DNA of 64,000 nt from Dyella sp. OK004 (GTDB lineage: Bacteria > Pseudomonadota > Gammaproteobacteria > Xanthomonadales > Rhodanobacteraceae), in contig NZ_FOZI01000002.1 in NCBI RefSeq assembly GCF_900114495.1, positions 1,178,001 to 1,242,000 on the forward strand, written 5' to 3'. The translations under genes were made by a program, and so were the position numbers. Of the stretch, positions 5,981 through 31,535 are shown piece after piece; the first letter of the stretch is position 1, and each line of letters opens with the position of its first letter. The notes under the pieces were generated by a model, which saw nothing but the letters and a program-made list of their open reading frames with translations, searched no databases and had not been told where the DNA came from.

Positions 5981-6541
5981 GCCGGATGCTCTCTAGAAGT
6001 CAGTCGAGTGGTTGAATCGTGCGCCCGCATCACATGCGGGCCTTGCGAATCACTCGCACGGTCGATGGATGTCCATAGGCTCATTTGTTCCTGCGCATCA
6101 CAAACCGATAGCCACGACGTTCTGCTGTGGCGGATTGAAGGCTTATGAAGGAGTGCCCGCGAAACTGAGAACGCACGCATGGGCAAGACGCATCGTATGA
6201 AGGCCAACGTGGACCAGACTATGGGAGTAATCTGAAAAGAGACGCGAGCTTCATTGACAAGCTCATCCGGCTCACATGCAGCCATCTACCCCGCCCGTCC
6301 TTCGACTACATGAACATATGCGCGAAGAACTTGCGTCCTGTCTGCCGGCATTGCGCGCGAAGCTGGCGTCGATCTCTGCATCAACGCAAAGTGACAATGA
6401 TTACCGACGTCCCTGGAAAAGATGAAAGCTATCTATAGCCATTCGCACACCATCGCCTGTCGGTCGCCTGCGCGGTCCGCTATATACGCTCAAACACCAG
6501 CAACCACTTTGCCCGCCATCGCTTCCATCGGCAGGTCGCAT
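5981..6541. other. Gene-free stretch upstream of the adhesin
   Basis: About 560 bases without a convincing gene. Short open frames on both strands lack ribosome binding sites and recognisable protein features. It should hold the adhesin promoter at its left edge. The right side runs into the decayed duplicate of the E2/glycosidase junction. Confidence 0.6.
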
Positions 6542-6571
6542 CTGCTGGACAATTTGGGTTTGTCGAACTGA
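6542..6571 (+). pseudogene. Relic of the E2 gene 3' end
   Basis: Thirty bases that translate to LLDNLGLSN-stop, against LLDDLGLPN-stop at the end of the E2 gene (1261-1290). The following bases (gttcg) also match the E2 downstream sequence. No further E2 coding sequence is recognisable to the left apart from a weak match near 6520. Confidence 0.65.
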
Positions 6572-6585
6572 GTTCGATCCCATCC

Positions 6586-6800
6586 CATGTCTGCATCAGG
6601 AGCGTAATGCGTGGTGGCTCCATCGGGCCGAATCACCGTGATGCTATGAGCGTCATAGCGCTTCCCAGCCACTTCGCGCGACACGTCAGCGACGTTGGCG
6701 ATAAGTCGGGGGCCATCAGCGAACGTCGTTTGCTGCGGACATCGATCCGACAATAGCCATTGCTGTCCGGTCAGCGCCTACGCACAAATGACGCAATGTC
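6586..6800 (-). pseudogene. Relic of the glycosidase gene 3' end
   Basis: Decayed copy of the glycosidase 3' end, matching about 1337-1550. Peptides such as QQTTFADG, REVAGKRYDAHSIT and HYAPDAD align with QQTTFADG, REVAGKRYDAHSIT and RYVPDAD of the intact gene. A TAG replaces the Gln codon before ALTG, which closes the frame upstream. The terminator hairpin carrying the stop codon is missing, so the frame reads on through the E2 relic in antisense. Together with 6542-6571 this is a second, degenerate copy of the whole E2-glycosidase junction. Confidence 0.8.
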
Positions 6801-6851
6801 CACCCTGCAGGCCCTACCCTAGAGCTACCCGCTTGTTCGCCGGAGACCGTC

Positions 6852-7235
6852 ATGCATCACAGCCGACTGAGCACCCTCGTTTTCGATTGCCGCACTGCCG
6901 ACCTCAAGCAGGCCGCCGACTTCTGGAGCCAAGCACTCGGCAAGCCTGTCGTTAGCTACGACCAGGACGGCGACGGGAAATACGCCGAACTGGCCACGCT
7001 CGCGGATGAGCCGATCATCTTGCTGCAGCGGGTGGATCATGACAGCCGCGTGCACCTGGATATCGAGACTGACGACTTGGAAGCCGAAGCGAAACGGCTG
7101 GAAAGCCTCGGCGCCAGGCGCATCGATCTGGTGCGTGGACGCTGGTGGGTAATGGAGGCACCGAGCGGGCAGCGCTTCTGCGTGGTGCAGAAACAGCGCG
7201 AAGCCTTCGGCCCGCACCTCAATCGCTGGGAGTAA
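6852..7235 (+). CDS. VOC/glyoxalase-like protein
   Basis: Protein of 127 aa with the beta-alpha-beta-beta-beta pattern of vicinal-oxygen-chelate proteins, closest to the glyoxalase-like (Glyoxalase_6) group. It begins with LSTLVFDCRTADLKQAADFW, has the central VHLDIETDDLEAEAKRLESL strand-helix unit, and ends with WWVMEAPSGQRFCVVQ. A GGAG box 6 bases upstream supports the ATG. Such proteins may bind a metal and act as small isomerases, lyases or resistance proteins; no substrate can be read from the sequence. It is a single gene, convergent with the membrane protein at 7242. Confidence 0.8.
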   Translation: MHHSRLSTLVFDCRTADLKQAADFWSQALGKPVVSYDQDGDGKYAELATLADEPIILLQRVDHDSRVHLDIETDDLEAEAKRLESLGARRIDLVRGRWWVMEAPSGQRFCVVQKQREAFGPHLNRWE

Positions 7236-7241
7236 GTGGCA

Positions 7242-18579: not shown

Positions 18580-19596
18580 TCACGCAGCGACACGCCTCGG
18601 CGCCATGGCCTGCTCGATCAGGTCCCAGCCCGCGCCCGGCAGATGGGCGCCTTCGCTGATCAGGCGCCGGAAACCGCGCGCGCCCGGCTCACCCTGATAA
18701 AGCCCCAGCAGATGGCGGCTGATGTGCTTGAGCGAAGTGCCGCGCGCCAGCTCGGCCTCGATGTAGGGGCGCATATGGCGCAACACCTCGTCGCGCTCCG
18801 GCAGCGGCTCGCCGTAGAGCGCCGCCTCCACCCGCGCCAGCAGATAAGGATCGTGATAAGCCGCACGGCCCAGCATCACGCCATCTACCTGGGCGAGGTG
18901 CGCCTGCACCTGCTCGACCGTAGTGATGCCGCCGTTGATGATGACGGTGAGATGCGGAAACTCGCGCTTTAGCCGATAGACGCGCTCATAATCCAGCGGC
19001 GGAATCTCGCGGTTCTCCTTCGGGCTCAGCCCCTGCAGCCACGCCTTGCGTGCGTGCACCGCCAGAATCTCGATACCAGCCGCGATCATAGTTTCAGTGA
19101 AATGCTGCAGGCCAGCGTAATCATCCTGATCGTCCACGCCGATGCGGCACTTCACCGTCACCAGCACATCCACCGCATCGCGCATCGCCTTCACGCAGTC
19201 GCCGACCAAGGCCGGCTCGCGCATCAGGCAGGCACCGAATTTGCCCGACTGCACCCGATCCGAAGGACAGCCCACGTTGAGGTTGATCTCGTCGTAGCCG
19301 GCCTCGGCACCGAGGCGCGCCGCTTCCGCCAATTCCTTTGGCTCGCTGCCGCCCAACTGCAACGCCACCGGGTGTTCCTGCTGACTGTGTTCGAGCAGGC
19401 GCAATTGTTTGCCGCGCACCAAAGCGGCGCTGGTCACCATCTCGGTGTACAGGCGCGCACGCGGGGACAGCAGGCGGTGGAAGTACCGGCAGTGCCGGTC
19501 CGTCCAGTCCATCATGGGGGCCACGCATACACGAAATGAGTCAATATTGCGGCTCAACCCTTGCGTAATATGACTTTCGTGACTGAGTGGAAGCAT
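18580..19596 (-). CDS. dusA: tRNA-dihydrouridine synthase A, N-terminus replaced by the integrative element
   Basis: FMN enzyme reducing uridines 20/20a in the D-loop of tRNA. 338 aa. Motifs: VAPMMDWTDRHCRYFHR, LNVGCPSDRVQSGKFGACLM (catalytic Cys in NVGCPS region), VTVKCRIGVDD, and INGGITT. An integrative element has inserted in the 5' end: the first 20 codons (MLPLSHESHITQGLSRNIDS) and the promoter come from the element. The native start (MTSALNPDDFRV) is left at 32441. From FRV onward the reading frame is restored, so the enzyme is probably active. Confidence 0.94.
   Translation of the reverse strand: MLPLSHESHITQGLSRNIDSFRVCVAPMMDWTDRHCRYFHRLLSPRARLYTEMVTSAALVRGKQLRLLEHSQQEHPVALQLGGSEPKELAEAARLGAEAGYDEINLNVGCPSDRVQSGKFGACLMREPALVGDCVKAMRDAVDVLVTVKCRIGVDDQDDYAGLQHFTETMIAAGIEILAVHARKAWLQGLSPKENREIPPLDYERVYRLKREFPHLTVIINGGITTVEQVQAHLAQVDGVMLGRAAYHDPYLLARVEAALYGEPLPERDEVLRHMRPYIEAELARGTSLKHISRHLLGLYQGEPGARGFRRLISEGAHLPGAGWDLIEQAMAPRRVAA
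19504..19526. repeat. attL of the dusA integrative element
   Basis: 23-bp direct repeat within dusA codons for VAPMMDW. It matches 32382-32404 at 22 of 23 positions; weaker similarity continues into the neighbouring FRV codons. dusA 5' ends are a known target of a family of tyrosine integrases. Confidence 0.88.
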
Positions 19597-19683
19597 TGCA
19601 TTACTACTCGTTTTGTGTGATTTCGGGCCGTTTTGCGATCAGCGGTGTAACATGGAGTGCAACACAAAGGGAAAAGTTGCACC

Positions 19684-20730
19684 GTGGGAACCATCCTCAC
19701 CCGCCGCCGCAAGGACGGCCAATCGAGCTACACAGCGGTCATCCGCCTCAAGAAAGCCGGCAAGGTGATCCATAGCGAGTCGGAGACCTTTGGGCGCAAG
19801 GCGCTGGCACAGGAATGGATGCGCCGGCGTGAGGCAGAACTTGACCAACATCGTGCCCGCGGCACGTTGCACGGCGCAAAGACGACGCTGGCCAGCCTGA
19901 TCACATGGTACCGCGAGACCGTTGGCCCCACAGCGAAGTGGGGGCGCACCAAGGCATTTGACCTCCTTCGCCTCGAAGGGTGCGACATCGCGCGCAAAGT
20001 GGCCACCGAGCTGGGCACCGCTGATTACATCAACCATGTGATGGCCAGACGCGCCGAAGGCGCCGGCCCGGCCACGGTTGGCAACGATCTTGTATGGATC
20101 GGCCAGGTGCTGCGATCGGCCCGCGCTGGCTTCAATCTCCCCCTGCGCCTCGACTTTCTGGCGGACGCTCGCCACGAGCTGCGGCAACGGAAGGTGGTCC
20201 GCAAATCGCGATGGCGAGATAGGCGTGTCACGCCGGCCGAAGACGTGGCACTGCGTGACTACTTCGCGCGACGCGATAGGCGCGCGCAGATACCTATGTC
20301 GGACATCTATGCGTACGCAGTGCTCACGACGCGACGGCAGGAAGAAATAACCGAGATCCGGCGCTCGAACTTCGAGCGGCCGTGCGCCTGGCTGGACGAC
20401 GTAAAGCACCCGACCATGAAAGAGGGCAACCGGAAGAAATTCCGCATGCCTCCCGAGGCATGGGAGATCATCGACCGGCAACGCGCGATCGATGGCGAGG
20501 ACCGCGTGTTCCCCTACAACCCCAAGTCCGTGGGCGCAGCTTTCGCCCGGGCGTGCAAAGTGTTGGGCATCGAGAACTTGACCTTCCACGACCTACGCCA
20601 CGAAGCAACGTCGCGGCTGTTTGAGCGCGGCTACGCCATCCAAGAGGTGCAGCAATTTTCGCTTCACGAGTCCTGGCAAACGCTCAAGCGATACACCCAC
20701 CTGCGACCCGAGCACCTCGTCGACCGTTGA
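19684..20730 (+). CDS. int: Tyrosine recombinase (dusA-type integrase)
   Basis: Phage-type integrase of 348 aa. The N-terminal arm-binding part (GTILTRRRKDGQSSYTAVI) is typical of integrases that use dusA. Catalytic residues: Arg in LTTRRQEEITEI, HDLRHEATSR (His-x-x-Arg), then LHESWQTLKRYTHL with the second His and nucleophile Tyr. The GTG start at 19684 matches the family N-terminus; an upstream in-frame GTG (19657) would add nine residues. It reads away from dusA and appears intact. Confidence 0.94.
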   Translation: MGTILTRRRKDGQSSYTAVIRLKKAGKVIHSESETFGRKALAQEWMRRREAELDQHRARGTLHGAKTTLASLITWYRETVGPTAKWGRTKAFDLLRLEGCDIARKVATELGTADYINHVMARRAEGAGPATVGNDLVWIGQVLRSARAGFNLPLRLDFLADARHELRQRKVVRKSRWRDRRVTPAEDVALRDYFARRDRRAQIPMSDIYAYAVLTTRRQEEITEIRRSNFERPCAWLDDVKHPTMKEGNRKKFRMPPEAWEIIDRQRAIDGEDRVFPYNPKSVGAAFARACKVLGIENLTFHDLRHEATSRLFERGYAIQEVQQFSLHESWQTLKRYTHLRPEHLVDR

Positions 20731-20829
20731 GCCTCCAAGTCGCTGTGCAGCGGCACACTAACTGCACACCGCTGCCTCCATGCCGATACGGAAAGCACGG
20801 GGGATTTGCTAGTGGCAAGGAGTACCACC

Positions 20830-21147
20830 ATGAAAGACAGCAGCACCATCATCGCCACGCTTGATCGCGCGATCGAGCACGTAGACGCCATCGAGACGCT
20901 TGGCGCAAGCTTGGCCGCAGGCATGCATGCCGGCGTGGTCATACCCGACCACGTGCAAACGCTCATGGCCATGATGGCCACGCAGATACGTGAGCAGTTG
21001 GTCGAACTGAGCGTGATGCTGCAGGGGGCAAGAGAGCAGCGGCAGGGAGGTAGTGAAAATCCCTCCCCTTTATATAGCCCCCAATGGGTGGCTTCTTCGG
21101 AAACGGGTAATTTTGGTAACTACGTCACCAAGTCACTCACTTTTTAA
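20830..21147 (+). CDS. Small element-encoded protein, unknown function
   Basis: 105 aa, start supported by AAGGAG 8 bases upstream. The first 70 residues look helical (IIATLDRAIEHVDAIETLGA, MAMMATQIREQLVELSVML), the tail is polar. No family recognised; proteins of this kind are common next to integrases. The last third reads through sequence whose base composition drops sharply towards the AT-rich array. Confidence 0.55.
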   Translation: MKDSSTIIATLDRAIEHVDAIETLGASLAAGMHAGVVIPDHVQTLMAMMATQIREQLVELSVMLQGAREQRQGGSENPSPLYSPQWVASSETGNFGNYVTKSLTF

Positions 21148-21306
21148 AGCTAAAACATATAGTTACGAGATCATGACAAGGGTAATCAAAAGGTAATTCC
21201 TGGGTAATCGGATTACCCTAACAAAAGGTAATTTCACTCTCACAGCTACTCATTTATATTCAATCACTTAGATGATGAGGGTAATTTTAATTACCCTCAA
21301 ATTACC
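21106..21306. repeat. Array of GGTAAT/ATTACC boxes in an AT-rich intergenic region
   Basis: Exact GGTAAT boxes on the plus strand at 21106, 21181, 21192, 21203, 21227 and 21280; on the minus strand (ATTACC) at 21212, 21290 and 21301; a near match GGTAAC at 21115. Spacing is 11 bp between 21181, 21192 and 21203 and between 21290 and 21301, one helical turn. The region is far more AT-rich than its surroundings. It lies upstream of the methylase operon and may be an operator cluster, iterons or an integrase/excisionase arm-site region. Confidence 0.7.
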
Positions 21307-21340
21307 TTTCCAAATAACTAACATAATCGTTTTATATCAA

Positions 21341-21706
21341 TTAGTTAGGCCGAAATAAAGGAACGCGGTTACCTTCATCACCCTTTTCCGCGCCCAACCC
21401 AAGCAGCACTCGAATCGTGTGACCAATGGACTCCAAGGCTTTGAGACCAACGCGACGTACCACACGTGTCATGAACTGACAAAGACAACGGGACCGGCCG
21501 CTGTGTCTTGCGGCGTGGTGTCGCATCGTCTTGATCAGGGCTTCAACCATGTGAAGGAAGGTGACACGGAAAGCCAGATCGTCGCGGTGATGGGGATTGG
21601 GATGAAACCGAGCGTTTGGTCCATACAGTCCACCTGATCTCGCCTTGATGTCCGCCCAAGCCAGATAAGGGGCCGCGTCGAACAAGTTGTAACGTCGGCA
21701 CAACAA
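21341..21706 (-). CDS. Doubtful small protein
   Basis: Open frame of 121 codons from a TTG, without a good ribosome site. The C-terminal half (RRVGLKALESIGHTIRVLLG) could be a real helix and the frame ends cleanly beside the AT-rich array. No family recognised. It could also be a chance frame. It is divergent from the methylase gene. Confidence 0.3.
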   Translation of the reverse strand: MLCRRYNLFDAAPYLAWADIKARSGGLYGPNARFHPNPHHRDDLAFRVTFLHMVEALIKTMRHHAARHSGRSRCLCQFMTRVVRRVGLKALESIGHTIRVLLGLGAEKGDEGNRVPLFRPN

Positions 21707-21745
21707 CGCAACAATTCAGTGTCAGTGCGACTTAAGGGGATAGGA

Positions 21746-22603
21746 GTGAACCGAGAACGGACGGCAGGCAAACCTGCTGGGGAAGACGGTGTCGGTATCG
21801 TCGTTCCTTTTCTCAAGTGGCCGGGCGGGAAACGGTGGCTGGCCGCAGAACACCGCAATGTGTTTCCCAAGAAATACAAGCGTTATGTCGAACCGTTTCT
21901 CGGCTCAGCATCCGTTTTCTTTGCGCTGCAACCCGAGCGCGCACTCCTGTCCGATGCAAATGAAGAACTGATCACCACTTACCGTGCTATCCGGTCGCGG
22001 CCCAAGGCAGTCATGGACGCGCTCAACCGCCATGCATTAAAGCACTGCGACACGTACTACTACGAGGTGCGATCGATGCGGCCCACAGGGTTGATCGAGC
22101 GCGCTGCGCGCCTGATTTACCTCAACCGAACCTGCTTCAACGGCATTTACAGAGTAAACCTTGAAGGTGTCTTCAACGTTCCGCGCGGAACAAAGAACAC
22201 AGTCGTGCTCCCAACTGACGATTTCCACACTCTTAGCCGGGTACTCCACGGAGCCGAGCTGGAAAACAAGGATTTCGAGGAAATCATTGATCAGTCGGGT
22301 GACGGCGACTTTGTATTCGCCGATCCGCCATACACGGTGCGCCACAACACCAACGGCTTCATCAAATACAACGAAAAGCTTTTTTCTTGGGCGGACCAGG
22401 AGCGCCTCGCAGCCGCACTAGCACGCGCGAGGCGTCGCGGCGCCCGGATTGTTGCGACGAACGCGAACCACTCATCCATCCGCGAACTCTACGCATATCA
22501 CCGGTTCGCACAGCGCACGGTCTCCCGCTTCAGTTCGATTTCCGCCACCAGTTCGAGCCGAAAACAATTTGAGGAGCTTGTCATCCTAGGAGGGCGGCGA
22601 TGA
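21746..22603 (+). CDS. D12-class (Dam-type) adenine-N6 DNA methyltransferase
   Basis: 285 aa. SAM-binding and catalytic motifs of the Dam family: FLKWPGGKRWLA, VEPFLGSASVFF (motif I) and FADPPYTVRHNTNGF (motif IV DPPY), with LIYLNRTCFNGIYRVN in between. It probably methylates adenine in a short site such as GATC, but the target domain does not allow a reading. The start is GTG at 21746 with AAGGGG six bases upstream; an earlier GTG (21719) lacks such a site. Its stop overlaps the next ATG. No restriction endonuclease gene is adjacent. Confidence 0.9.
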   Translation: MNRERTAGKPAGEDGVGIVVPFLKWPGGKRWLAAEHRNVFPKKYKRYVEPFLGSASVFFALQPERALLSDANEELITTYRAIRSRPKAVMDALNRHALKHCDTYYYEVRSMRPTGLIERAARLIYLNRTCFNGIYRVNLEGVFNVPRGTKNTVVLPTDDFHTLSRVLHGAELENKDFEEIIDQSGDGDFVFADPPYTVRHNTNGFIKYNEKLFSWADQERLAAALARARRRGARIVATNANHSSIRELYAYHRFAQRTVSRFSSISATSSSRKQFEELVILGGRR

Positions 22604-23199
22604 CGGCCGGAGACCCCAACACCGCACGAGACGTGGAGACTGACGGTAGATGGAAGCGATTTACCAAACACCCTTGGGTAAGGGCGACTTTGCGCTTTCT
22701 GAAGCGGCACCGCGAAGCTTTCTACCAGTTGTTCATGACAGTGGCCTTGGCCAACATCCCGATCGCTATTGTCTATCTCGACAAGATAACCAGCCTTGAT
22801 CCAAAGGCGCCTCATGATGGGTACTGGACCATCCTTCTGCACCTGTTTCGTAGCGGCGATGTTTACGTCTATTCGGCAGCACTTGTGGCACCGTTCTGGT
22901 GGACGCTACTTACCTATATGAGGAACAAGCGCAAGATGTGGCTCGCCCCATTGCCCTTCGTGCTGAGCTGCTTCTGCACTGTTGCAGGCGGCCTCATCTA
23001 CGCGAATCAGCTAAACGGACGTCTAAGCAACGAGCCAGTGGTAAATACTCTGGCGATCGCCATCTTTCTCTCATCGCTTGTGGTGCTGTACTGGTCTATC
23101 TATTGCGATCAGGCTTTGGCCGGGGACAACATGGAAGATCCCTTCGAAAAAGACCAGGACGACATCAACGATCTCATGAACGACATGGATAAGGGCTGA
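22600..23199 (+). CDS. Four-helix membrane protein of the methylase operon
   Basis: 199 aa, no family recognised. A basic N-terminus (RWKRFTKHPWVRATLRFLKR) precedes four predicted membrane helices (about 42-60, 85-106, 116-135 and 147-168) and an acidic cytoplasmic tail (FEKDQDDINDLMNDMDKG). Translation is coupled to the methylase (ATGA overlap), so it is part of the same functional unit. Small multi-helix proteins in defence operons often act as membrane-damaging effectors; that role here is only an inference. Confidence 0.75.
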   Translation: MTAGDPNTARDVETDGRWKRFTKHPWVRATLRFLKRHREAFYQLFMTVALANIPIAIVYLDKITSLDPKAPHDGYWTILLHLFRSGDVYVYSAALVAPFWWTLLTYMRNKRKMWLAPLPFVLSCFCTVAGGLIYANQLNGRLSNEPVVNTLAIAIFLSSLVVLYWSIYCDQALAGDNMEDPFEKDQDDINDLMNDMDKG

Positions 23200-23204
23200 G
23201 CCGC

Positions 23205-24302
23205 ATGGCGACTAAGAGCATCAAGCTAGACGGTCTCGTGGTCTCGCAACCTATCGGTGAGTTTTACGTCGTCGTCATGGAGCCTGACCAGTTAACCAGC
23301 CTAGCTGTCGCCGACGTGCGTAAGCTAGATGACAACGAACTCGATAAGTACCTAGGAATCCAGCGCCGCCTCGACAAAAAGCGTGTCGCCGAAATCAAGC
23401 AATACGTGAAGGGTATCGACGCGACTTTTCCAACGTCGGTACTACTCCACATCAGCGCGGAAAACGCGGAGTGGGACGACGATAGCCGCAAGCTGACGAT
23501 CTTCTCGAATCAGGATGGGGACTTTAGCGAAATCGCCCATATCCTTGACGGTCAGCATCGTGTCGCCGGGCTGGAAGGGTATAGCGGCCCCACTTTTCAG
23601 CTCTGCGTCTGCATCTTCATTGGCGCCGATATCGCGGACCAGGCGAGCATTTTTTCCACAGTGAACCTTGCGCAGACCAAGGTCAGTAAGAGCCTCGTCT
23701 ACGACCTCTACGAATATCAGAAGGCAAGGAGCCCGCAAAAAACGTCGCACAACATCGCGATTGTGATGGACCGGAGGGAGGGCAGCCCTTACCTAGGCAA
23801 GATCAAACGCCTCGGGTTTGCCACTAAGCCAGGTCAGATGCTCACCCAGGCCACCGTGGTGGAAGAGCTGATGCGGCTAATTACCCGCAGCGAGACCCAG
23901 GATCGGCAGGACCTGATGAAGGGCAAAAAGCTGCTACCTGCAACCGATGCAGAGCTACGCAAGACACCGTTCCGCAAAATGTTTATAGCTGGGCAAGACA
24001 GCAATATCGCGCTCAACGTGCTGAATTTCTTCCTTGCCGTTGAGGCCAGGTGGCCTACGGCATGGGAAGGCAACAAAGGCGTCATCCTTCCCAAAACGAA
24101 CGGCTTCAAGTCCCTTATGTGGGCACTTGGCGAGTGGTACTCCAGGAATATGGTGGAGGGTGACGAGGTCTTCGACGCAAAAGTGTTTGGCAGTTATCTC
24201 CAGAAGGTGAATCTTCGAGACGAGGATTTCACCACCGACCTGTTCAAACCGGGCTCTACCGGCCAAGCCACGTTCAAAGATTACCTTCGCGAAGCACTTT
24301 GA
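23205..24302 (+). CDS. DGQHR-domain protein (DndB-like)
   Basis: 365 aa. The signature AHILDGQHRVAGLEGY near residue 115 defines the DGQHR domain, as in DndB (regulator of DNA phosphorothioation) and DpdB of the deazaguanine-DNA system. The N-terminus has a ParB-like look (RLDKKRVAEIKQYVKG). FSTVNLAQTKVSKSLVYDL is also typical of the family. No dnd or dpd partner genes are present; the partners here are the methylase and the membrane protein. It starts 5 bases after the previous stop and is followed by a strong terminator. Confidence 0.88.
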   Translation: MATKSIKLDGLVVSQPIGEFYVVVMEPDQLTSLAVADVRKLDDNELDKYLGIQRRLDKKRVAEIKQYVKGIDATFPTSVLLHISAENAEWDDDSRKLTIFSNQDGDFSEIAHILDGQHRVAGLEGYSGPTFQLCVCIFIGADIADQASIFSTVNLAQTKVSKSLVYDLYEYQKARSPQKTSHNIAIVMDRREGSPYLGKIKRLGFATKPGQMLTQATVVEELMRLITRSETQDRQDLMKGKKLLPATDAELRKTPFRKMFIAGQDSNIALNVLNFFLAVEARWPTAWEGNKGVILPKTNGFKSLMWALGEWYSRNMVEGDEVFDAKVFGSYLQKVNLRDEDFTTDLFKPGSTGQATFKDYLREAL

Positions 24303-24353
24303 GTCGTTGCGTGCATCATTTCGCATCACGCGCGAGCGGTTCGCTACACCAAG

Positions 24354-24379
24354 CGGCGCCAGTAATGGCGCCGTTTTTT
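24354..24379 (+). terminator. Terminator of the methylase-DGQHR operon
   Basis: 7-bp GC stem (CGGCGCC/GGCGCCG), 6-base loop, then six T. It starts 52 bases after the DGQHR stop codon. Confidence 0.88.
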
Positions 24380-25067
24380 CGTCTGCACCACTCGCATCAA
24401 AAGCAAGGGGCGAAGCGCGCAGGCGTGGAGGGGGGATGACCGCGCGCGCTGAGGGCTGGCTGACGAGATTTGATCATTTGTTGATCAGCCGACAGGCTTC
24501 CAGCCTGAGCCGTCCTGCCCCTCCCCTTCGGGGACCAAGAGAGCATCACCACTAGCCACAATGGCGTTAGGATGCGCTCATCTTTGCTGATGGAACCAAG
24601 CAATCAGCACCGGGCGTCGACGCCGATTGATCCAACTACAAAGCCCCGCATTTGCGGGGCTTTTCATTTATGGCCAGGGGCCACGTCGCTGCACCGTTAC
24701 GGTGTAGGCATTCCCTTACTCGCACATGAGAATCCCCTTATAGTCAATCGAGGAGACAGTAATGGACGATGGACATGCCCAGTGAGTCTGGCGACCAAAG
24801 CATCGACCTTTGGTGACAGCCGATGACCTGGGTATCGACTTCTCGGCGATGGCCCGGCATTACCTGTCGCTTGGTTCAATAGGCGTGCTTCACGATACGT
24901 CGACGGCCTTCATGGCCTGTTAGCAAGTCGAAACCATCGCCGCGCCGTCTCGGTCCTTGCGACGGATGTCAGGAAATCTGTAACGAATGGCTGGTTGAAT
25001 GACGGGCGCACGACTGATAGGCGCCAGAACGACTCACAACTGAAGCACACAACATAGGGAATTGGAC
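24380..25067. other. Gene-poor stretch with decayed fragments
   Basis: About 690 bases with no convincing gene. A reading frame of 36 codons (24813-24923, TADDLGIDFSAMARHYLSLG) could be a leftover of a larger protein. At 24772 an ATG with an AGGAG box is followed by only seven codons, suggesting a frame broken early. TGATCA occurs twice 11 bases apart (24471, 24482). The RHS promoter should lie at the right end. Confidence 0.5.
24641..24664. terminator. Rho-independent terminator-like hairpin
   Basis: 10-bp stem AAGCCCCGCA/TGCGGGGCTT with a 2-base loop, continuing into TTTT. No intact gene ends before it, which suggests a lost gene or an unseen short transcript. Confidence 0.7.
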
Positions 25068-28000
25068 ATGAGCACAAGGAAGTGGTGCGCCGCCTCGGCG
25101 CGCCGTGCAGTCGTCATGGTACTAGGGATGATGCTGTCGTTAGCTTGGTCTAACGCCAGTCGCGCGAGCTACGGCCTGCCCTACTACATCCAGAACTACG
25201 AGAACGGTCAGCTGGTCACGTATACCTTTGACAAGCTCGACGATGGCATTGCCTTTGCCAAACAGTACATAGTCGTTGTGTGGCCATCAGGCACCCGTGA
25301 GCAGTGCCCGATAACCGTCACCTACGCCGACGCCAATACGATACAGAAAAATATACAGGCATCCGTTGGCTACACTTCGAGCAAGCCAGGCTGGTACACC
25401 TGCGAAGCGCGCGTCCTCGACATTAAGCTGACGACCTACGCGTACGACCCTGGAAAGAACACAGGCGAGAATTGCAATGGCGGTAATGGCATGCCGGATG
25501 GCGATGGCGCCATCACTTGCCCGGGCATGCCCCAAGCAGGCGATCCCATTAACGTCGCGACCGGCAACAAGTATGAGCAAGAAACCGATTTCGATACCTC
25601 GCCTTGGCTGACATTCCGGCGCTTCTACAACAGTGAGCGGAGCATTTCCCGGTCCAACCTAGGACCACAGTGGCGTCACTCGTTTGATCGCTCACTAATC
25701 CAATCCACCACCTTGCCCAATGGCCAGGGTACGCCGTATATCCAGCTCCAGCGCCCCTCCGGAAGCAGTGAAAATTTCCAACCGACGGCGAACGGTGGCT
25801 GGGCGCCCGATTCCAATGTGGCCGACACTCTAACCGCCGATGCGAACGGTTATACGGTCTACGTGGCAGGCCCGAACCAGTTTGAGCGCTATTCGACATC
25901 GGGACAATTGCAGTACATCGCCGATGCATCGGGGCAGATGACCACGTTCACCTACAACGGATCGCTACTCCAGGCAGTCACAGACCCCTTCGGTCGCACG
26001 CTTCAGTTCAGCTACGACAGTAATAACTTGCTGCATACCGTCACGCTTCCGGACAACGGTGTCCTCACGTACGGCTACACCAATGGCGTGCTGACCTCCG
26101 TTCAATACCCTGATAGCAAGACGCGTCAATACGTCTACAACGAGGCAGCCCTTACGAGCGGCACGAACCTGCCTTATGCGATGACCGGCGTTATCGACGA
26201 ATCGGGCAAGCGATACGACAGCACCGGCTACAACACTGCAGGCCAAGCGATATCCTCGACCCACGCCGGGGGCGCCAACGCTGTGCGCCTATCTGGCATC
26301 AGCACTATGAGCACGACCATGACGTCGCCGTTGGGCGCGTCCATGCGCTTCTCCACAGCAGATGATGGCCATGGCCGAATCACGCTGAGCGGCTTTTCGC
26401 AGGCATGCCACGCCGACTGGTGCTATCAGCCCTGGACATCGATTAAATACGATGCGAACGGCTATGCCAACTCACTGCAGGACTTTGCCGGAAACACCAC
26501 CACACTCACTCACAACGCCGCGGGATTAGAAACACAGCGCACTGAGGGCATGGCATCAATCGGAGAACAGCGCACCATTAACACCACTTGGGATGCGGTT
26601 CTACGCCGTCCTTTGACTCGGGTGACCTTGGATAGCAAGAACAACCCCGTCAAGCAAAGTGCATGGATATACAACAGCTCAGGGCAAGTCACTGCCCGCT
26701 GTGACATCGATCCTACGAACGCGAACGCCACCAGCTACACCTGTGGCAGCTCACCTCAAGCGCCGATCGGGGTCCGTCAATGGACCTACACGTACTGCAC
26801 CGCCATCGACAACGTTCAATGCCCCGTCACCGGGTTGCTGTTGAGCGAAGATGGCGCGCGCGTAGATGTTTCAGACGTCACCCACTACAGCTACTACCTG
26901 ACCACAGACACCTCGGGATGCGGGACAGCCGGCAGCGTCTGCCATCGTGCGGGTGATCCCTATCAAATCACTGATGCGCTCGGGCACGTCGTCACCTATG
27001 CGTCCTACGATGGCGCGGGGCGCGTCACACGCGTGATCGATCCCAATGGTGTGACGACGGACCTCACCTACACGCCGCGCGGCTGGATACAAACCCGCAA
27101 GGTCGGTAGCGCCACCACGACCTATGCTTATACCCCCTATGGCTCTGTAGCCTCCGTTACCGATGCGGACGGGGTCGTTGTGACCTATGGTTACGATGAC
27201 GCTCATCGCCTGATAGACATCACTGACGCTCAGGGTAACCGTATCCATTACACCCTGGATGCCGCAGGGAACGAGACCGACGAATCGATCTATGCAGCAG
27301 GTAGTAACACGCCGAGCCGCCACCTCTCGCGTACGTTCAACAATCTGGGACAGCTCACTAAGATCATTGACGGCCTCAATCAGACCGTGTTCGATGCGAG
27401 CGCAAGCGGCGCCTATAACCTCAACGGCAACCTGGCGAACTCCATTGATGTGCTGGGGGTTCAGCGTACGCGTCGGTTCGACACGCTGAACCGCTTACAG
27501 ACGATCCAAGACAGCGCCAAAGTCAACGGATCTACACAGTATTCCAGCACCACGTACGCCTACGATGCATTGGATCACGTCAATAAAGTCACTACGCCAG
27601 ACTACAAAAGCACCGCCAGCACGTACGATGGCTTGGGCAATCCCCAGTCACTCAATAGCCCAGACACGGGTGTAACGTCATCGACATTTGATGCGGCTGG
27701 TAATGTGCTGACTCGCACGGACGCCAAAGGTAATGTTGCCACCTTCACTTACGACGCCATAAACCGCACGACCGCAACCACCTATGTGGATCCCACCCTC
27801 AACGTATCCTATCGCTACGACGAAGCAGATAGTGTCACTGGCTGCACTGGCTCCTACCCTATCGGACGCCCGACCCGAATTATCGAAACCAGCGTAACGA
27901 CGGTCTACTGCTATGACGCGCGGGGTAACGTCACGCAGAAAAGCCAGATACAGGGAGCATCCACCGACATCACCGGCTATACGTATACCTCGGCTAATCG

Positions 28001-29729
28001 ACTGGCCAGCGTCCGCACACCCAGCGGCGCGTCGATTCAGTACCAGCGTGACGTCAACGGACGCGTCAGCGCAATCACTGCGCTAGCACCTGGAACAATC
28101 AGCGCAAGTGCGGGCAATGTCGCGACGAGCATCACCTATTTACCGTTTGGACCCATTGCAAGCTACACCCTGGGTAATGGACAAACGATCACGCGCTCCT
28201 ACGACGTGAACTATCAAGTGACGGACGTGGTAAGTCCGGCACTCAATCTGCATTTCGCTCGAGATGCTATGGGACGCATCGTAGCTCTGGGCAACGCACC
28301 AGGGGCCAGTCCGGCGGTAGAGACATATAGCTATGACTGGCTCTCAAGGCTGGCAGCTGTAACCGATGCGACTGGAACGAATCTAGAGTCCTATACGTAT
28401 GACGCTATTGGTAACCGCGCGAGCAAGACAGCCAATGGTCTAGCGACGGGTACTTACGGCTACTACCAGTACCCACACAACTGGCTGACTAACGTCGGTA
28501 GCACGGCACGTACGTACGACAACAACGGCAACACGACCGGCAGCGCCATGGGTGGCGAGACCTTCGGCTTCGGGTATAACAGCCGGAATAGGATGACGGT
28601 CGTACAGCGAAATGGGAGCACGGTTGGTACCTATACCTACAATGCTCAGGGCCAGCGAACAGCCAAATCAATCTCGTTCCCCGCCCCCCTGAATCAGCGC
28701 TTCGCCTATGATGAGCAGAGCCAGCTCATCGGCGAATATGGTGATACGACACGCGACTACGTCTGGCTGGGCAATCTGCCACTAGCAGTGATCGACACGC
28801 AGGGAACAGCTAGCACAACGAGCTTTGTGCATGCAGATGGTTTAAGTACACCTCGCGCCATCACTGACGCCAACGGCACCTCCCTGTGGAAGTGGGATCA
28901 ACAGGGCAATCCATTTGGCGAGCAAATGCCGCTGGCTCCAACCGGGTACGTTTTCAACCTGCGCTTCTCAGGACAGTACTACGACGCAGAATCAAGCATC
29001 TTCTACAACGGATTTAGGAACTACGACCCGGCAACTGGTCGCTACCTCCAAAGCGATCCGATCGGACTCAACGGCGGCATAAGTAGCTATGCGTACGTCC
29101 AGAATAGTCCGGCAATGGGGACTGATCCCCAAGGCCTGCAGACCATTCCCCGCGATGCTTACTTTACCGATTGGACAAACCCAGAGACTCGTGCAGCTGC
29201 GCGCGGCTTTTGGGCAAACATGATCCCCGGTTACGCCCTAGCCGGATGTGTCAATAATGGCTGCACCGGCTGGGGTTGGGGTCTCTCCGCAGCCGGGGTA
29301 CTACCTGGCATTGGAATGGTGTCTGGCGTAGCGAGAGAAGCCCGCGCCGTCAGGGCGATGTGCCAAGCGTCCGGAGCCGCCAGAGGCGTGGCAAATCCGA
29401 TATCCAGCACGTTGGCCCGTGTCGTGCCTCGCAACATCAATCCGACCACGCTCGGGAGAGCAGGTGATGTCGATGTTTTTGTCACCAATGCCAGCGAACT
29501 TAGAGGGTTGTCCAACGCAGAAATTGCAAGTAAATTGACGATCCCAGAAGTGCCTGGTGGGTTTAGGGTGATTGAGTTTCCCAGCTCCTCCGTTGACGGC
29601 ATCGCGTCTCCAGTGTTTAGGTCAAATCCCGGTTTTCTGCAGGGAGGGCAAACCGCTAATGGTGCCGCAGAATTTGTGATCCCAAATGGCCCAATCCCTC
29701 CGGGAGCGACGCAATGGCTTCCACATTGA
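25068..29729 (+). CDS. RHS/YD-repeat protein with C-terminal toxin domain
   Basis: 1553 aa polymorphic toxin. Signal peptide at 1-34, then a unique N-terminal domain, a DUF6531-like entry (GDPINVATGNKYEQETDF), and a long series of YD repeats (GRVTRVID, GYDDAHRLIDITDAQGN and similar) that build the RHS shell. The core ends with FYNGFRNYDPATGRYLQSDP near residue 1330. The remaining 190 or so residues are the variable tip, ending in GGFRVIEFPSSS and GAAEFVIPNGPIPPGATQWL, which resembles polymorphic-toxin tips of the type-10 kind; the activity is not certain. Base composition is lower in GC than the core genes, consistent with transfer. ATG has AGGGA 7 bases upstream. Confidence 0.92.
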   Translation: MSTRKWCAASARRAVVMVLGMMLSLAWSNASRASYGLPYYIQNYENGQLVTYTFDKLDDGIAFAKQYIVVVWPSGTREQCPITVTYADANTIQKNIQASVGYTSSKPGWYTCEARVLDIKLTTYAYDPGKNTGENCNGGNGMPDGDGAITCPGMPQAGDPINVATGNKYEQETDFDTSPWLTFRRFYNSERSISRSNLGPQWRHSFDRSLIQSTTLPNGQGTPYIQLQRPSGSSENFQPTANGGWAPDSNVADTLTADANGYTVYVAGPNQFERYSTSGQLQYIADASGQMTTFTYNGSLLQAVTDPFGRTLQFSYDSNNLLHTVTLPDNGVLTYGYTNGVLTSVQYPDSKTRQYVYNEAALTSGTNLPYAMTGVIDESGKRYDSTGYNTAGQAISSTHAGGANAVRLSGISTMSTTMTSPLGASMRFSTADDGHGRITLSGFSQACHADWCYQPWTSIKYDANGYANSLQDFAGNTTTLTHNAAGLETQRTEGMASIGEQRTINTTWDAVLRRPLTRVTLDSKNNPVKQSAWIYNSSGQVTARCDIDPTNANATSYTCGSSPQAPIGVRQWTYTYCTAIDNVQCPVTGLLLSEDGARVDVSDVTHYSYYLTTDTSGCGTAGSVCHRAGDPYQITDALGHVVTYASYDGAGRVTRVIDPNGVTTDLTYTPRGWIQTRKVGSATTTYAYTPYGSVASVTDADGVVVTYGYDDAHRLIDITDAQGNRIHYTLDAAGNETDESIYAAGSNTPSRHLSRTFNNLGQLTKIIDGLNQTVFDASASGAYNLNGNLANSIDVLGVQRTRRFDTLNRLQTIQDSAKVNGSTQYSSTTYAYDALDHVNKVTTPDYKSTASTYDGLGNPQSLNSPDTGVTSSTFDAAGNVLTRTDAKGNVATFTYDAINRTTATTYVDPTLNVSYRYDEADSVTGCTGSYPIGRPTRIIETSVTTVYCYDARGNVTQKSQIQGASTDITGYTYTSANRLASVRTPSGASIQYQRDVNGRVSAITALAPGTISASAGNVATSITYLPFGPIASYTLGNGQTITRSYDVNYQVTDVVSPALNLHFARDAMGRIVALGNAPGASPAVETYSYDWLSRLAAVTDATGTNLESYTYDAIGNRASKTANGLATGTYGYYQYPHNWLTNVGSTARTYDNNGNTTGSAMGGETFGFGYNSRNRMTVVQRNGSTVGTYTYNAQGQRTAKSISFPAPLNQRFAYDEQSQLIGEYGDTTRDYVWLGNLPLAVIDTQGTASTTSFVHADGLSTPRAITDANGTSLWKWDQQGNPFGEQMPLAPTGYVFNLRFSGQYYDAESSIFYNGFRNYDPATGRYLQSDPIGLNGGISSYAYVQNSPAMGTDPQGLQTIPRDAYFTDWTNPETRAAARGFWANMIPGYALAGCVNNGCTGWGWGLSAAGVLPGIGMVSGVAREARAVRAMCQASGAARGVANPISSTLARVVPRNINPTTLGRAGDVDVFVTNASELRGLSNAEIASKLTIPEVPGGFRVIEFPSSSVDGIASPVFRSNPGFLQGGQTANGAAEFVIPNGPIPPGATQWLPH

Positions 29730-30013
29730 CGATTCAATCGAATGAATCAAAATTATGCGGAAAATGGATTTCTGAGGATGGGAAGTTGGTGGCCGATGTC
29801 ACCACGAAGCGCATTTTCCATCTGGTGGAAAATGAGCTTGTAGAGGTTGCCCGCTCAGAGGACGGCTGGTCAGTTCTTTACTTAGACAAGAAAGATGGTC
29901 GTTACTGGGAGCTAAATTATCCTGATAGCGATCAGCACGGCGGAGGTCCTCCATGCCTGGAATTCTTATCGCGCGATGCAGCTCTGGCTAAGTTCAAACT
30001 CTCAGCCAATTGA
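29714..30013 (+). CDS. Imm27-like immunity protein
   Basis: 99 aa, overlapping the end of the RHS gene by 16 bases, the classic position for the cognate immunity gene. The pattern KWISEDGKLVADVTTKRI, then DGRYWELNYPDSDQHGGGPP and LEFLS, matches immunity proteins of the Imm27 family as I know them. It should bind and neutralise the RHS tip. A GGGAG box lies inside the RHS 3' end, giving independent translation. A hairpin follows. Confidence 0.85.
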   Translation: MASTLTIQSNESKLCGKWISEDGKLVADVTTKRIFHLVENELVEVARSEDGWSVLYLDKKDGRYWELNYPDSDQHGGGPPCLEFLSRDAALAKFKLSAN

Positions 30014-30056: not shown

Positions 30057-31079
30057 CTAGGTGGTCTTGAAGCCGAAGACCCTAGCACCCAATCCGTCAT
30101 TCAAGCCAAGCATCCGAACGATCAGCGGATCGATCTCGTTCTCCCTGAACACGTCCCTCGCCTTTCCCACATCGCCGAAGCCGCCAGCGTTGGTCGGAAT
30201 CATGCCAAGCAACTGTGGTGGCACGCGGTGCGCCGCGAGAATGTCGTCACGGCTGGTGTTCTTGATCGCGGCGAAGTCGTCCTTGGCGGCCACTTCGCTG
30301 ATGGGGATCACCTGCACGCCGTCTTTCTTGCCGTTGGGCGCATACATGAAGAGGTTGCGGAAGTTACCCGGTCCTTTCGCGTCGCGCAGCGCCTTGCGCA
30401 GGTTGTCGACGTCCGAAGCCTGCTGCGCGGTGTCGGTCATGTAGAGAATGAATCCGGCGTGCGATCCGTTGTCGTAGTACTTGCGCCGGAATAGCGTCGC
30501 CGACTTGTTGAGCTGGGCCGCGTGTAGCGCGCTCAGATATTCGGGGACGCCGTACACCTCCTGACTCACGTCCGTGGCCTTGAGCTGGATCACCGGTCGC
30601 GTGAACTCGAACGCCTGCCCGCTCAGCGGTACGAACCAGCACTGTCCCTCTTTCACGCCCGGGCGGGTGAACATCGCCGGCGAACGCTTCAACGACAACA
30701 GGTTTCCCGACAGTGCCTTGGTCTGCTCAAGGTAGGCATGGCCGAACGTCAGGTAGTCGGTGGCGAAGGCCTCGAACTCGCCCACGGAGAGGTAAGGCGA
30801 CGCCTCAAAGGACGACACCAGCAGATTGCGTTTCACGTAGATGGCCGATGCGTGGTGTGGCGCAACACGCAGCATGTTGGCCAGGCCGTTGAGGTTCACC
30901 GGCGGCTCGTACCAGCGGCCGTTGTTCCACACTTGGACGTAATCCAGCAACGATGCACGGTCGATCGGCTCGGGGTCACCGAAGGTGAACGCATGAATCC
31001 GCCCCGCCTCGGCGGCATCCGTCGGCCGTGTCGTCTCGCGCAGGATCGCTCGCTTGTGCTCAAGGCGGAGAGACGTCAC
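30057..31079 (-). CDS. P2-type phage portal protein (gpQ family)
   Basis: 340 aa, full length for the P2 gpQ family of capsid portal (DNA-entry) proteins. Shared landmarks: FTFGDPEPID, NNGRWYEPPVNLNGLAN, YVKRNLL, EVYGVPEYLSALHAAQLN, SATLFRRKYYDNGSHAGFIL, NLFMYAPNGKKDGVQVIP. No terminase, capsid or scaffold genes accompany it. It starts at a GTG overlapping the DUF6194-like stop (GTGA), so the two are translationally coupled. An intact portal standing alone could be a recent remnant, or a kept gene that interferes with phage packaging. Confidence 0.93.
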   Translation of the reverse strand: MTSLRLEHKRAILRETTRPTDAAEAGRIHAFTFGDPEPIDRASLLDYVQVWNNGRWYEPPVNLNGLANMLRVAPHHASAIYVKRNLLVSSFEASPYLSVGEFEAFATDYLTFGHAYLEQTKALSGNLLSLKRSPAMFTRPGVKEGQCWFVPLSGQAFEFTRPVIQLKATDVSQEVYGVPEYLSALHAAQLNKSATLFRRKYYDNGSHAGFILYMTDTAQQASDVDNLRKALRDAKGPGNFRNLFMYAPNGKKDGVQVIPISEVAAKDDFAAIKNTSRDDILAAHRVPPQLLGMIPTNAGGFGDVGKARDVFRENEIDPLIVRMLGLNDGLGARVFGFKTT

Positions 31080-31501
31080 CAGCTAGTTGGCCGAAGCTCT
31101 CGAATCTCGCGGGCTCGAGCCAATAGCGTCTTGCACTCCGGCCAGACGAAATCTGGATTTACCACGCTCACCCATCGCATCGCGCCATAGATCGGATGAG
31201 GGAAAAACGCGTCAGAGGCTTGATGGTTGAAGCTCGCTTTCTGTAGATCTGCCTTGCCTCGGATTCCGGGAAAGAGACTCTGAAAGGTCTCCTTGTCTGT
31301 CGGAAAGTTCAGACGGTATATGCCCTCGCGGTTCAATTGCGATGAACTATCGTGATCATCGTCATGAGTCACGATTGTCGCGAAAGGAAACTTCGCGTCA
31401 TTGCCTGTAAAGAAGTACAGGTCGGCCGTGCTGTCATCAACCTCAACGTCTTGCAGTGCTGTTTGAATCCAGTCACGGATGTCGTTAAGCGCCATTTCCA
31501 T
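31076..31501 (-). CDS. DUF6194-like protein
   Basis: 141 aa. Pattern MALNDIRDWIQTALQDVEV, then PFATIVTHDDDHD, YRLNFPTDKETFQSLF and HPIYGAMRWVSVVNP resembles the DUF6194 family, whose function is unknown. The start at 31501 was chosen because AAGGAGG lies 5 bases upstream; an ATG seven codons earlier would place this box inside the gene. It is divergent from PadR with the palindrome between them, so PadR probably controls it and the coupled portal gene. Confidence 0.78.
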   Translation of the reverse strand: MEMALNDIRDWIQTALQDVEVDDSTADLYFFTGNDAKFPFATIVTHDDDHDSSSQLNREGIYRLNFPTDKETFQSLFPGIRGKADLQKASFNHQASDAFFPHPIYGAMRWVSVVNPDFVWPECKTLLARAREIRELRPTSW

Positions 31502-31511
31502 AATGGCCTCC

Positions 31512-31535
31512 TTGGTAGTCAAATTTGACTACCAA
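31512..31535. promoter_or_regulatory. Perfect 24-bp palindrome, probable PadR operator
   Basis: Each half is TTGGTAGTCAAA or its complement, without spacer. It lies 11 bases upstream of the DUF6194-like start and 57 bases upstream of padR. A second, shorter inverted repeat (TGTCTA, 5-base spacer, TAGACA) lies at 31557-31573, just before padR. Confidence 0.75.

Follow-up and report, generated by a model that had tools for sequence, protein, structure and literature searches.

What does a Dam-family DNA methylase do beside a small membrane protein and a DGQHR protein on a mobile element? The question is raised by three adjacent genes in a 64,000-nucleotide stretch of the Dyella sp. OK004 genome (contig NZ_FOZI01000002.1, positions 1,178,001 to 1,242,000 of the forward strand; hereafter the window, with positions counted from its first letter), which an original prediction made from the DNA letters had read as a compact operon and a plausible anti-phage system. 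We found that the trio is beyond chance, as its neighbourhood recurs in dozens of other contigs, and that the membrane-protein and DGQHR genes are a constant core, the modification enzyme being exchangeable. We propose that the trio is a mobile, modification-gated, membrane-based anti-phage module, a reading to which we give a rough probability of 0.53.

Loci were found with a profile built from four DGQHR proteins, and 112 of them were compared, comprising the best 80 of 157 genome matches, 26 viral contigs from IMG/VR and six plasmid loci (14 of the 18 plasmid matches were examined, and H3, H4, H5 and H8 were left out). Three pairs with identical DGQHR ends (L080/L101, L085/L110 and L105/L120) are each counted twice. 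A multi-pass membrane open reading frame (ORF) lies directly upstream of the DGQHR gene in all 108 testable loci; in the other four (L031, L043, L047 and L107), the sequence starts less than 180 nucleotides (nt) from the DGQHR gene. The distance is at most 20 nt in 105 loci, with ORFs of 149-265 residues, and L040, L091 and L015 add the remaining three. Ninety of the 105 overlap the DGQHR gene, a number that is possibly inflated, with DGQHR starts taken as longest-ORF starts and 18 overlaps longer than 30 nt. A Dam-type gene is present in 86 of the 112 loci: in 64 it immediately precedes the membrane gene on the same strand, and in 17 it immediately follows the DGQHR gene (15 convergent). By clustering, the 61 Dam-bearing genome loci belong to ten named phyla, 43 of them to Pseudomonadota. 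The module is rare, since the DGQHR profile matched only six of 398 genomes of the window's phylum at an E value of 1e-20, counting that of the window; in three of the other five matches (L122, L123 and L125, not L124 and L126), the ORF immediately upstream is multi-pass. No paper on the trio was found among the matches listed from open-licence PubMed Central papers, and it may have been reported elsewhere.

The two halves of the core also diverge together. Across 76 non-redundant loci, the distance matrices correlated at 0.77 for DGQHR and membrane protein, 0.40 for DGQHR and Dam, and 0.36 for Dam and membrane protein. None of 1000 shuffles reached any of these values, although shuffling leaves shared ancestry in, so that the contrast of 0.77 with 0.40 is the informative part. 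The idea of a three-gene unit therefore needs revision: its recurrence elsewhere is borne out, whereas the equal partnership of the three genes is not, given a tightly correlated core, a more loosely correlated methylase and the replacement of the latter by MT-A70 enzymes.

This replacement was seen most directly in the 26 loci without Dam, 16 of which carry another modification gene. A BglII-like nuclease accompanies an MT-A70 methylase in seven and another D12 methylase in one; an MT-A70 methylase stands alone in three and another D12 methylase in one; L071 has an N6_N4 methylase, and L013-L015 have dnd genes. When the presence of MT-A70 was mapped on a DGQHR tree (113 proteins), nine changes were required, of which at least seven are forced by well-supported branches. 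In one close pair of loci, L011 and L086, the DGQHR proteins are 82.8% and the membrane proteins 65.5% identical; Dam adjoins the pair in L086, and an MT-A70 methylase and a BglII-type nuclease lie ~2-4 kb upstream in L011. BglII sites also contain GATC, and the non-dnd partner enzymes may therefore share one recognition core. Among the remaining ten Dam-less loci, five (L017, L022, L043, L047 and L064) are at contig ends, and L074 is cut off ~0.5 kb downstream, where a convergent Dam could be missed. A D12 methylase was found elsewhere in the genome of L074 and, in a search of nine of the ten genomes, also in those of L017, L043 and L064, not in those of L020, L022, L027, L040 and L047. As a separate observation on L011, which lies on plasmid pRiA4, a VapC-family gene and an unassigned 364-aa gene as well as the methylase and nuclease genes precede the pair (4291-7241).

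The same two-gene order is found with phosphorothioation (dnd) genes. All nine dnd-type loci (L013-L015 and L127-L132) have a multi-pass ORF of 171-228 residues directly upstream of the DGQHR gene, with a gap of at most 11 nt except in L132 (77 nt); the stretch examined for L131 holds FtsK and AAA genes and no gene annotated dnd. A dndB gene is annotated besides the pair in L127 and L128, which argues that the pair does not replace DndB there. On the DGQHR tree, five dnd-type proteins form one separate clade (100% support in the Shimodaira-Hasegawa-like approximate likelihood-ratio test, SH-aLRT). When the membrane profiles of the dnd-type and Dam-type loci were compared, the probability was 55.8 over 120 columns with the dnd-type L013 and L014 removed from the target, and 93.1 with both left in. 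Single dnd members reached 8.7-82.3 and six held-out Dam-type members 99.0-100; the controls gave 1.8 and 3.9 (reversed) and 0.1-8.8 (seven unrelated multi-pass neighbours). The window trio thus resembles the loci of 'DGQHR protein 1' (TIGR04172) in dnd/dpt systems in its two-gene order and in a homologous DGQHR protein; it differs in adenine methylation instead of phosphorothioation, in its tree branch and in a membrane protein whose homology is only suggested.

In the window itself, the three ORFs stand where the original prediction had put them, in coordinates as well as strand (Table 1). The first two overlap by ATGA at 22600-22603, and a 5-base gap separates the end of the second (23199) from the start of the third (23205). 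The methylase gene has two in-frame starts, of which GTG 21746 is better than GTG 21719, the start of the longest ORF, because AAGGGG stands 6 bases upstream of it. The hairpin proposed as the operon's terminator is present, with 11 pairs followed by T; it is one of 14 terminator-like matches in 19500-25100, where shuffles expect 5.9. Promoter-like sites were at chance level in our scan (3 found, 2.8 expected). The GC content of the three genes is 0.53-0.57, compared with 0.618 for the window.

Both family identities, Dam-type methylase and DGQHR, hold up against the TIGR00571 and TIGR03187 models, each scoring above its cut-off. The search found no D12-class methylase other than the window Dam in this genome. 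The nearest solved structure to this Dam is DpnM (2dpm, E 1.2e-48), ahead of E. coli Dam (E 4e-28), and the DPPY motif is intact in all 85 aligned Dam sequences, the window's included. E. coli Dam contacts GATC through K9, N120, R124 and P134. Since the aligned residues K33, N141, R145 and P155 are kept, GATC is most likely the site of the window enzyme. The kinship with DpnM and the sister loci that pair a BglII-type nuclease with a methylase recall type II restriction-modification systems of the DpnII/BglII type. Unlike these, the window trio has no nuclease that we could find; a BglII-type gene is absent from the DNA stretches examined for all 86 Dam loci, and the gene clusters around them show no recurrent nuclease family, other nuclease types not having been searched singly.

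The DGQHR protein is predicted to have a ParB/sulfiredoxin (Srx) fold. In a structure search with its model (pLDDT 90.2), the first 21 rows were ParB, PadC, Noc, KorB, sulfiredoxin or the ParB-like 1vk1, and Q53-R54, D115GQHR119 and F150xxxN154 are each conserved in at least 97% of 110 DGQHR sequences. The protein passes the broader Pfam family PF14072 DndB (42.7 bits, cut-off 29.1) and fails the more specific models, namely TIGR03233 DndB (18 bits, cut-off 328), DGQHR_dnd_1 TIGR04172 (166.8 bits, cut-off 450) and DpdB (58.6 bits, cut-off 300). Like DndB and DpdB, it would thus be a DGQHR/ParB-fold protein of a DNA-modification system; it differs from them in scoring far below both NCBIfam cut-offs and in having Dam and a membrane protein as neighbours. 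Scans of four libraries found no domain beyond DGQHR/DndB. The modelled fold of residues ~13-160 is that of the CTP switches Noc, ParB and KorB, and a CTP switch coupled to membrane binding is described for Noc (PMC8429893, excerpt); in the window trio the membrane part is a separate protein.

That separate protein had been described as a four-helix membrane protein without known family, and this description agrees with our results. Its AlphaFold2 model (pLDDT 87.6) has long helices at residues 25-51, 87-106, 117-138 and 145-177 and a C-terminal helix at 181-198; no Pfam or NCBIfam family was matched above cut-off and no PADLOC or PHROG family at E of at most 1. The basic N-terminus of the original prediction is a family feature (median net charge +2.5), whereas the C-terminus is not always acidic (median -1, 10-90% range -5 to +2). 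A glycine-acid motif is conserved in the membrane protein.

The trio also has a mobile setting. The integrative element that had been postulated is visible as an integrase gene beside an ORF that we take to be dusA, and as a phage portal gene further on (Table 1). A Stenotrophomonas prophage, L028, has the order dusA, integrase, Dam, membrane protein, DGQHR, portal and terminase, which repeats the dusA-integrase-trio-portal order of the window, with protein identities of 61% (dusA), 42% (integrase), 58% (Dam), 47% (DGQHR) and 50% (portal); its membrane protein gave no match to the window's at E 1e-3. Because of this matching order and these identities, the window element is read as a probable reduced P2-like prophage with its cargo kept intact. 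A search for an attachment-site repeat at the dusA end found no exact repeat of at least 14 bases of 19400-19760 elsewhere in the window. The region gpA-gpQ of E. coli P2-like phages is a known place for anti-phage genes (PMC9122126, excerpt); in the window, an Rhs gene and an Imm27 gene separate the portal from the trio.

Table 1 Features of the window discussed in the text.
Feature	Position	Strand	Support
Dam-family N6-adenine DNA methylase (ORF1)	21746..22603	+	longest ORF from GTG 21719; TIGR00571 'dam' 226.3 bits, cut-off 114.85
Predicted four-helix membrane protein (ORF2), DGQHR partner	22600..23199	+	AlphaFold2 model; basic N-terminus, acidic C-terminal helix
DGQHR protein (ORF3): predicted ParB/Srx-fold domain (~residues 13-160) and helical C-terminal half	23205..24302	+	TIGR03187 161.7 bits, cut-off 58.85
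Intrinsic-terminator-like hairpin closing the operon	24351..24376	+	11 pairs, 7 GC, T tail
Presumed dusA (tRNA-dihydrouridine synthase), adjoined by the element	18580..19596	-	ORF; 61% identity to L028 flank gene
Tyrosine recombinase/phage integrase	19657..20730	+	PF00589 2e-13; phrog_1 integrase 2.4e-33; 42% to L028 integrase
Phage portal gene (P2 gpQ-like), prophage remnant	30057..31079	-	PF04860 8.4e-13; 50% to L028 portal

Many relatives of the trio likewise lie in prophages, on plasmids or near integrases. Genes like gpD are near the pair in 14 of the 112 loci (duplicates included), and portal or terminase genes are near three. In L109, L112, L113 and L114, the membrane gene is preceded on its own strand, at 24-74 nt, by a CI-type repressor gene, and Dam is convergent behind DGQHR; the repressor call has family support in L109, L113 and L114 and rests on clustering in L112. 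L065 has an HTH (helix-turn-helix) protein at this position, and in L116 the repressor is one ORF further off. We noticed no CI gene in the element of the window, in which no search aimed at CI was made. On L104 (7336-11200), Dam stands beside gpD on the gpD strand, with the membrane and DGQHR genes on the opposite strand; such a layout could allow the mark to be set during lytic growth and the effector to be produced during lysogeny.

We favour modification-gated defence because the pairing is constant, divergence within the pair is correlated, the enzyme is exchanged, the DGQHR protein has a predicted ParB/Srx fold and prophages carry the genes. In this mechanism, the membrane and DGQHR proteins would form one functional unit at the inner membrane, and the DGQHR protein would be a ParB/Srx-fold nucleotide switch that engages DNA without the cognate mark, which in the window would most likely be the N6-methyladenine that Dam places in GATC. 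Dam would mark self DNA and the pair would stay silent; expressed in a lysogen or host, the pair would act on unmarked DNA at the membrane. The membrane protein may be an anchor, an effector or both, either opening the membrane and aborting infection as RexB does or holding incoming DNA as Kiwa does.

Both comparisons have their limits. Like lambda RexAB, the window trio joins a putative DNA-binding cytosolic protein to a membrane protein and is prophage-borne, and the loci with a CI-type repressor share the position of rexAB directly downstream of it. In contrast to RexAB, the DGQHR model has a ParB/Srx fold and the trio adds a DNA methylase, with no sequence relation found; no Rex family appeared among the Pfam matches of the trio or of 94 membrane proteins, the existence of a Rex model in Pfam being unconfirmed. 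To our knowledge, Rex systems lack a DNA methylase. For lambda, an excerpt of PMC12894663 places rexAB at the position downstream of CI and describes a DNA-binding sensor with a membrane effector. Kiwa (a KwaA membrane tetramer with the DNA binder KwaB) shares the two-gene design of a membrane and a DNA-binding protein and captures DNA at the membrane without cleaving it (PMC12904381, excerpt). It differs in that the same excerpt mentions no modification enzyme for Kiwa, and no Kiwa model was among the PADLOC matches of the trio at E of at most 1.

More tentatively, and with considerable doubt on our part, the trio might stand for a new class of immunity, that is, restriction without a dedicated nuclease. 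A ParB-type switch would load on DNA that is unmarked (by methyl or phosphorothioate) and hand it to a membrane protein that halts either the invader or the cell itself, and a swap of the enzyme would reset what counts as self.

Several observations weigh against modification-gated defence. Recurrence in defence islands, which the original prediction led one to expect, amounted to weak enrichment when 139 neighbouring genes (170-900 aa, from a simple ORF caller) of 73 loci in the range L016-L090, no more than two for each locus, were compared with PADLOC. Methylase families matched up to six neighbours among the best 25 of 55 families, and the non-methylase families listed (PDC, HEC-06, Orf5, mREase_IV and others) one each. 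We count the result as weak because the control, 33 window ORFs outside the element with no PADLOC match, is small and uneven. No methylase was found near four of the pairs (L020, L027, L040 and L081), although both their flanks are long, and none of the D12 class was found anywhere in the genomes of the first three, where other methylase classes were not searched. The loci with a BglII-like nuclease already own a restriction enzyme. A tblastn search of 50,697 records of isolated phages with the DGQHR protein gave no match, yet 26 IMG/VR viral contigs encode relatives. Structure comparison of the membrane protein gave no relative naming its action. Kinship between the dnd-type and Dam-type membrane proteins is only suggested, because the value of 55.8 is above background and far below that of true members. 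Finally, DndB, a studied DGQHR protein, is reported to be a transcription regulator, which binds and regulates the dnd promoter (PMC4507180, excerpt).

This last point leads to the strongest alternative, in which the DGQHR-membrane pair would regulate the modification enzyme as DndB does, sensing DNA state or nucleotide level and tuning the methylase, with the membrane protein tethering or sequestering the regulator; the outcome would be epigenetic control, not immunity. Such a role would fit the ATP and GTP binding described for a DndB-like ParB-fold protein (PMC12704722, excerpt) and the presence of a modification gene in 102 of the 112 loci. However, the annotated dndB genes that L127 and L128 have in addition to the pair make a purely regulatory, DndB-like role less likely. 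A second DGQHR-family gene in L015, the four long-flank pairs for which no neighbouring methylase was found, the membrane partner in each locus that a regulator does not obviously need, and the failure of the window protein at the DndB model also argue against it. We consider this alternative unlikely as an account of the trio, although the pair may have a regulatory role.

A second alternative is that the trio protects or propagates its carrier: Dam would shield prophage DNA from host nucleases that cut GATC, and the pair would exclude related superinfecting phages or plasmids by a route that does not depend on methylation. The prophage and plasmid settings described above suit this view, but it leaves the pairing with MT-A70/BglII and dnd genes unexplained, and in 64 loci the Dam gene immediately precedes the pair on one strand, in an operon-like arrangement; we hold it to be quite improbable. 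Least probable is a cryptic restriction-modification system with the DGQHR protein itself as the nuclease and the membrane protein only localising it at DNA-entry sites, for although nuclease activity is reported for ParB/Srx relatives (PMC4619093 and PMC12839542, excerpts) and no separate nuclease family recurs around the Dam loci, the window protein showed no domain beyond DGQHR/DndB, the GmrSD nuclease motif is attributed in the former excerpt also to a separate HNH domain that was not found here, and a nuclease is already present in the BglII-bearing loci.

If modification-gated defence is correct, one membrane-switch pair would serve several DNA-modification systems. This would suggest a role for 'DGQHR protein 1', so far unassigned, in phosphorothioation loci, and likewise for some of the 'orphan' Dam genes that mobile elements carry. 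Such a module would also bring together modification-based discrimination, as in restriction-modification, and membrane effectors such as RexAB and Kiwa, two kinds of defence that are usually kept apart. A direct test is possible, since GATC methylation can be switched in laboratory E. coli.

Other features of the element were also noted. Between the trio and the portal gene, the plus strand (25062-30013) encodes an Rhs-repeat protein with an Ntox10 C-terminal domain, directly followed by an Imm27 immunity gene, and a DUF6194 gene (31076-31522, minus strand; PF19694, 4.4e-33) adjoins the portal remnant. Upstream of the trio, an AT-rich stretch at 21106-21306 holds nine copies of GGTAAT/ATTACC in 200 bases, compared with 34 in the whole window; arranged partly as direct and inverted repeats, they look like an iteron or operator array.

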